Both the position numbers and the translations under genes were made by a program. Positions 16,551 through 22,110 of a stretch of DNA of 64,000 nt are shown piece by piece. Source of the DNA: Streptomyces sp. Mut1 (GTDB lineage Bacteria; Actinomycetota; Actinomycetes; Streptomycetales; Streptomycetaceae); assembly GCF_030719295.1 (NCBI RefSeq), contig NZ_CP120997.1, positions 496,001 through 560,000 on the forward strand, in the 5' to 3' direction. How positions within the stretch are numbered: the stretch's first letter is position 1; every line of letters begins with the position of its first letter. Below the pieces are notes generated by a model, which saw only the letters and a program-made list of their open reading frames with translations, was not told where the DNA came from and ran no database searches.

Positions 16551-22110
<5,560 letters not shown>

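Follow-up and report, generated by a model that had tools for sequence, protein, structure and literature searches.

The question raised by this locus is what an NRPS releases when its terminal module ends in a thioesterase (TE) with a Cys nucleophile and a fused MFS transporter. The window analyzed here is the whole 64,000-nucleotide stretch of Streptomyces sp. Mut1 (NZ_CP120997.1, positions 496,001 to 560,000), and the gene in question, NRPS C, shares an operon with the parts of a short assembly line (Table 1). By its domains, its catalytic triad and its kinship, the TE belongs with those of ObiF1 and SulM. We tentatively propose that it is a type I Cys thioesterase of the ObiF1/SulM kind, which ends the line by releasing a peptidyl-serine beta-lactone, a reading that we rate somewhat below an even chance.

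Translation of 20090-20107 (+) gives Y-G-H-C-A-V, in which Cys is encoded at 20099-20101. The gene begins with an ATG at 16547, in an ATGA overlap with the stop of the upstream gene, and ends at 22114, giving a product of 1,855 aa in which the nucleophile is Cys1185, as the sequence-only reading had numbered it. Pfam places Condensation, AMP-binding, AMP-binding_C, PP-binding, Thioesterase and MFS_1 domains in this order in the single frame; the MFS domain, absent from the sequence-only reading, matches TIGR00900 (H+ antiporter) at 2.8e-52, below the curated cut-off. GHCAVG had been described as standing in place of GHSxG, and Cys does replace Ser, but the change is not a simple swap since one residue is added (GxCxxG). 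Most family members have this extra residue after the nucleophile (GHCAVG or GHCGVG), in contrast to GHCAG of ObiF1 and GHSxG of type II enzymes. In the predicted model, the strand, the nucleophile and the helix are in place despite the extra residue, and the lid blocks are of low confidence (pLDDT 55-66).

Table 1. Features of the NRPS C gene and its operon, in window coordinates.
Feature	Position	Strand	Basis
NRPS B: C-A-PCP module, code DTEDVGSVIK (acidic pocket, predicted basic residue)	13227..16550	+	Pfam, code
NRPS C: C-A(Ser)-PCP-TE-MFS, 1855 aa	16547..22114	+	Pfam
Adenylation domain (AMP-binding + C-terminal part), DVWHISLVDK, predicted Ser	18089..19522	+	Pfam residues 870-1347, frame at 15482
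Peptidyl carrier domain	19601..19798	+	PF00550, residues 1374-1439 of frame at 15482
Thioesterase domain, position-II triad	19889..20596	+	PF00975 residues 1470-1705 + structure
Cys1185 nucleophile codon	20099..20101	+	
Asp1306 codon (position II acid)	20462..20464	+	aligns with ObiF1 Asp1254, SulM Asp2926
His1336 codon	20552..20554	+	aligns with ObiF1 His1284
MFS transporter domain fused C-terminal of TE	20792..21796	+	PF07690 residues 1771-2105
Stand-alone acyl-AMP ligase, predicted starter activation	22111..23616	+	
NRPS D: C-A-PCP, code DIVQLGVIWK, predicted Gly	23613..26633	+	Pfam, code
MbtH-like protein	26638..26862	+	PF03621 1.8e-16
Free-standing acyl/peptidyl carrier protein	26859..27125	+	PF00550 6.2e-5, above cut-off
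Stand-alone condensation domain	27122..28567	+	PF00668 6.8e-19
DMFA2_C-domain protein (N,N-dimethylformamidase beta-like)	28564..30477	+	PF20254 2.8e-71

A search for relatives with the TE-MFS part scored 7,985 candidates, of which 1,218 proteins reached E <= 0.001. Each of the best 120 of the 1,218 has both the TE and the MFS domain, and several sources annotate them as ‘non-ribosomal peptide synthetase/MFS transporter’. Of the 121 TE rows from these best 120 plus the window, 119 have a Cys nucleophile and 2 a Ser; a genome scan, in which 80 of 115 relatives were kept, gave Cys in 79 of the 80 loci. The kept loci come from actinobacteria (Streptomyces, Kitasatospora, Embleya, Streptosporangium, Planobispora, Herbidospora, Dactylosporangium and others) and, beyond them, from three Herpetosiphon. 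Within the genus, a TE scoring >390 bits was found in 3 of 61 genomes (its own, G212 and G219) in a survey that scored part of the first-look candidates, and G218 carries a more distant TE that is likewise fused to an MFS domain. The PLSDB annotation under four plasmid-borne matches was empty. The triad Asp and His are present in all 113 rows of the aligned family and position II is Asp in every one, with position I being Gly in 63 and Ala in 50, counts in which five loci (L097, L099, L102, L105, L108) repeat others (L045, L041, L044, L074, L055), judged from score, code and length of the contig, and are counted twice, as they are in the tree, the lid comparison and the code counts over the 113 rows. 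In the NRPS C TE, position I is Ala1213, which stands at the place of ObiF1 Gly1173; there is no Asp there. Four relatives (L034, L109 and P0118, all three from Planomonospora, and P0119) combine a terminal DTED code, typical of a basic residue, with a Ser nucleophile in GHSSVG. The two DTED-coded proteins among the 121 rows are the two with Ser, and in the DTED-coded members the nucleophile has changed together with the terminal residue.

Profile search, fold, the geometry of the triad and the tree all support the relationship to ObiF and SulM that had been suggested from the letters. ObiF1 (PDB 6n8e) is the nearest enzyme to the TE by profile, fold and tree alike, and SulM is equally near by fold; the sequence profile ranks ObiF1 first, then BorB, then SulM. 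ObiF1, the obafluorin NRPS and the best sequence and structure match at ~30% identity, shares with NRPS C the C-A-PCP-TE order, the Cys nucleophile, the Asp at position II, a small residue at position I (Gly in ObiF1, Ala in NRPS C) and a beta-hydroxy terminal residue, predicted to be Ser in NRPS C whereas ObiF activates beta-hydroxy-p-nitro-homoPhe. The two also differ in what is fused behind the TE, an MbtH-like domain in ObiF and the MFS domain in NRPS C, where MbtH is a separate gene. SulM, the sulfazecin NRPS (PDB 8w2c, 8w2d), has a Gln-Cys-Asn motif (PMC11298585) in contrast to His-Cys-Ala, and its last A domain activates 2,3-diaminopropionate (PMC11298585); the code of NRPS C, set against this reported substrate, is read as one for Ser. 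The SulM cluster also has a sulfotransferase (PMC11298585), for which no Pfam match was found in the scanned genes of the operon. Among solved NRPS thioesterases, PMC11298585 names ObiF1 and SulM alone as having such an arrangement of the triad, and each of the two forms a four-membered ring.

A further similarity, to type II editing enzymes, had been noted from the letters, and it stands for sequence (BorB, SrfD and RifR) but not for tree and fold, which place the TE with ObiF1 and SulM. Some type II editing TEs have Asp at position II as well (PMC11298585); they differ from the NRPS C TE in being stand-alone with a Ser nucleophile, where the latter is fused in cis, has Cys and is separate from them on the tree. 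A branch with SH-like support of 0.991 divides the family, ObiF1 and SulM from 19 type II-labelled rows, all of which have GHS; these comprise BorB, SrfD and 17 outside TE rows labelled by frame length and the GHS motif itself. Outside rows that were weaker, repeated or type I-like were left out of the tree, as was a TE with GHCMG, L144. SulM forms a long branch, and one distant row (L122) falls outside the side of the family, ObiF1 and SulM. Clustering with editing thioesterases had been named as the outcome that would speak against ring formation, and the tree separates the two, yet it is no clean test because ObiF1 and SulM themselves group with type II TEs in the account of PMC11298585. 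That the domain is an editing enzyme in cis and not a release catalyst we consider very improbable: the sequence resemblance is met by the position of the TE immediately after the PCP, in the one module of the operon with a terminal TE, which makes a plain editing role unlikely, by tree and fold, and by the operon itself (13227-30477), in which no other TE gene was seen.

Another possibility is that the TE hydrolyzes the chain to a linear acyl-Gly-X-Ser acid, with Cys being no more than the nucleophile that this TE branch inherited from its ancestor. BorB, a type II TE, is the next solved relative after ObiF1, and the stand-alone TE L144, a 284-aa protein from a genome of the same class, has its Cys in an otherwise type II-like sequence, so that Cys also occurs outside release domains; weighing L144 led us to lower the beta-lactone reading slightly. 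Against hydrolysis stand the conservation of Cys in the near family, the GHS of the type II-labelled rows and the behavior of two known enzymes on Cys-to-Ser exchange: ObiF1 C1146S yields only acid (PMC6668435), and the same change in BulbE-TE of bulbiferamide, like NRPS C a Cys TE of an NRPS, favors hydrolysis (PMC11536411). With Cys kept so strictly and this exchange leading to hydrolysis, release in the family is probably not by water, and we regard hydrolysis as unlikely, though a serious contender.

Which residue meets the TE depends on the adenylation codes. The code positions are those of GrsA, and the calls of Ser, Gly, Asp, Thr, Asn and Orn are predictions from Stachelhaus codes. Re-reading the A domain of NRPS C again gave DVWHISLVDK, which we take to be a Ser code by the Stachelhaus table, so the clear Ser code claimed earlier is supported. 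It is conserved in the near family, in 117 of 119 readable codes (best 120 of 1,218 proteins plus the window; one further row was unreadable), a figure biased toward close kin as these 120 rows are the nearest relatives. The terminal residue of NRPS C is accordingly predicted to be Ser, a residue bearing a beta nucleophile.

The wider relatives are more varied. Among 79 terminal codes, from which the repeat loci are excluded, 33 are Ser, 43 Asp-like and 3 others; the Asp-like codes (DFT[KH].GHVGK or DLTKIAHVSK) occur with the same Cys TE, and across the 113 TE rows Cys is found both with Asp-like codes (58 rows) and with Ser codes (41 rows). Further codes, among them an Orn-like one (L116) and a Gly-like one (L118), occur at normal A-TE spacing. 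More distant TEs have Cys behind Thr-like codes in 7 of 7 rows (L122, L165, L173, L175, L176, L177 and L179), a point in favor of ring closure. Where the A domain has a DIWQST[AT]DDK code (n = 14 in the wider group), the TE has Cys in 4 rows and Ser in 10. Two of the distant rows have no sure terminal code: in L174 no A domain was found upstream, and in L189 a Ser code lies 1,174 aa before the TE. The Ser, Asp-like, Orn-like and Gly-like ends found with the same TE indicate that this type of TE does not always go with a beta-hydroxy residue at the end, and the DIWQST[AT]DDK split together with L144 indicates the same for Cys. Such a range of ends would be tolerated by hydrolysis. Asp cannot yield a beta-lactone without hydroxylation, so the Asp-coded relatives count against the beta-lactone reading.

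We therefore looked for a beta-hydroxylase that might serve the Asp-coded relatives. No TauD was found in the flanks of the Asp-coded relatives, either by HMM in ten genomes or by tblastn with seven TauD queries at 113 loci, and no P450 was a consistent neighbor among the matches listed from the ten genomes, one P450 lying ~5 kb from the L063 TE. TauD dioxygenases do lie within 6 kb of seven TE-family paralogs (L090-L096), whose codes are Ser (3), DLPK.AEVGK (2), DFLKVASVAK (1) and DIWQSTADDK (1). We take DLPK.AEVGK to be Asn-like, and the two loci that have it beside TauD (L093, L094) could by their code end in beta-hydroxy-Asn. With the DFT[KH].GHVGK code missing from all TauD-flanked paralogs and the P450s patternless, we rejected a hydroxylase for the Asp-coded relatives within the TauD and P450 families searched. 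Residues of the TE lid differ clearly between Ser- and Asp-coded rows at 1246, 1269 and 1272; however, the code requires a minimum of 4 changes on the TE tree with 1 supported independent pair, so this co-variation offers no valid test.

Two loci among the TE-MFS relatives, L167 on the Streptomyces clavuligerus megaplasmid and L104, have codes without Asp235 (GLLKVGHVGK and GM-KIGHIGK), which suggests an unusual substrate. L169 (NZ_CP108358.1, 67179-85874) combines a DIWQSTADDK A domain with an ObiF-like Cys TE (GHCSG), and its neighbors are a PLP enzyme, an argininosuccinate lyase-like gene, an ATP-grasp and a kinase; these genes may point to a building block of the diaminopropionate type, and a beta-lactam-like line is possible there.

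The operon is shared with relatives. Among the closest 22 loci (L010-L030, L066), 12 carry all six of the genes compared (NRPS B, NRPS C, the acyl-AMP ligase, NRPS D, the condensation domain and DMFA2_C). Four loci (L021, L022, L023, L026) lack only DMFA2_C, the final gene of the block common to several relatives and present in part of them; L018 and L024 have only four each, and in L013, L014, L028 and L030 only NRPS B and the TE gene are visible, the contig of L028 stopping there. The MbtH-like gene and the free carrier protein sit between NRPS D and the condensation domain. The two genes immediately upstream in the window, MFS (11661) and ArsR-like (10988), have no counterpart in the 22 nearest loci, nor in particular in L010, despite 99% identity over the TE gene; genes upstream of 10988 lie mostly outside the flanks fetched from relatives. 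NRPS B adjoins the TE gene in relatives. Four loci (L031-L033 and L035) have D-like and B-like modules together in a single frame upstream of the TE gene, and there the module order is Gly, basic, Ser. The acidic DTEDVGSVIK makes a basic residue likely for NRPS B, and this order and the codes together lead to a putative acyl-Gly-basic-Ser chain.

For the beta-lactone reading, we envisage the following course. The acyl-AMP ligase, whose code NATFGTYPAK has no Asp at code position 235, and the free carrier protein would load a starter, after which NRPS D would add Gly, NRPS B a basic residue and NRPS C Ser, with both the substrates and the order predicted. The PCP would hand the acyl-Gly-X-Ser chain over to Cys1185, with His1336 and Asp1306 as the activating residues. 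The predicted terminal Ser would offer its beta-hydroxyl, which would attack its own thioester to release the peptidyl-serine beta-lactone, and the fused MFS domain would then export it.

The same chain offers other nucleophiles, and we weighed, as an unlikely course that we place below hydrolysis, that the ring is closed by the amine of the basic side chain (macrolactam), by a hydroxyl of the starter (macrolactone) or by iterative Ser ester formation as in enterobactin. The acidic code of NRPS B is typical of a basic residue; according to PMC13126170, Orn-selecting pockets use Asp and Glu, with Lys/His serving for Asp and Ile/Trp for Gly. Such closure would be compatible with both Ser and Asp ends, and BulbE-TE is a macrolactamizing Cys TE (PMC11536411). 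However, BulbE-TE, which forms a 15-atom indolylamide macrocycle, has Asp at position I (PMC11536411), as do macrocyclizing TEs of the EntF type (PMC6668435), in contrast to Ala1213 of the NRPS C TE. In addition, several Asp-coded loci, e.g., L036, L041 and L045, show the Asp module alone, with no basic module, and hence no such amine, in the fetched flanks.

We know of no described product of the TE-MFS NRPS family. No TE-MFS fused NRPS or product was named in titles or abstract openings among the matches listed from the open-licence PMC literature, the phrase ‘serine beta-lactone’ was likewise absent among the matches listed, and the A-domain code strings gave no match there. Extended to the 1,218 related proteins, the proposal would be that actinobacterial NRPS lines use an ObiF-type Cys TE to give peptidyl-serine beta-lactones directly to a fused MFS transporter, with the Asp-like sisters forming another strained or electrophilic C-terminus, e.g., a cyclic anhydride; we hold this wider form to be doubtful. 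If the beta-lactone reading is true with plain Ser, the family would be a common source of covalent serine beta-lactone inhibitors, and the TE a catalyst for the most ordinary beta-hydroxy amino acid, with release and export joined in a single polypeptide. The division of the family into Ser- and Asp-coded lines constitutes a natural experiment on what chemistry is open to a Cys TE that has its Asp at position II.

Self-resistance to obafluorin is conferred by a ThrRS, and we evaluated a second seryl-tRNA synthetase as its counterpart. The genome of the window has two full-length serS genes (G000:C1 3891585 and 4080936), as do 9 of the 61 sampled genus genomes, its own included. With the copies >3 Mb from the cluster and the TE-bearing G212 and G219 showing one each, we rejected this candidate.

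Many relatives, mostly Asp-coded (L036, L038, L041, L042, L045, L076 and others) but also the Ser-coded L043 and L065, have genes for a 2-oxoacid dehydrogenase-like complex beside them (E1 alpha, E1 beta and E2, assigned from L076, L045 and L048 as representatives), and the complex perhaps makes the starter acyl group in those relatives. Elsewhere in the window, a divergent set at 1026-10872 (-), mostly beyond the flanks fetched from relatives, encodes a SARP/AfsR-like regulator, a C-A-PCP protein, a branched-chain aminotransferase and an A-PCP protein that ends in a SnoaL-like domain. At 34018-36438 (+), a right-handed beta-helix region is joined to an AAA ATPase and lid domain in one protein.
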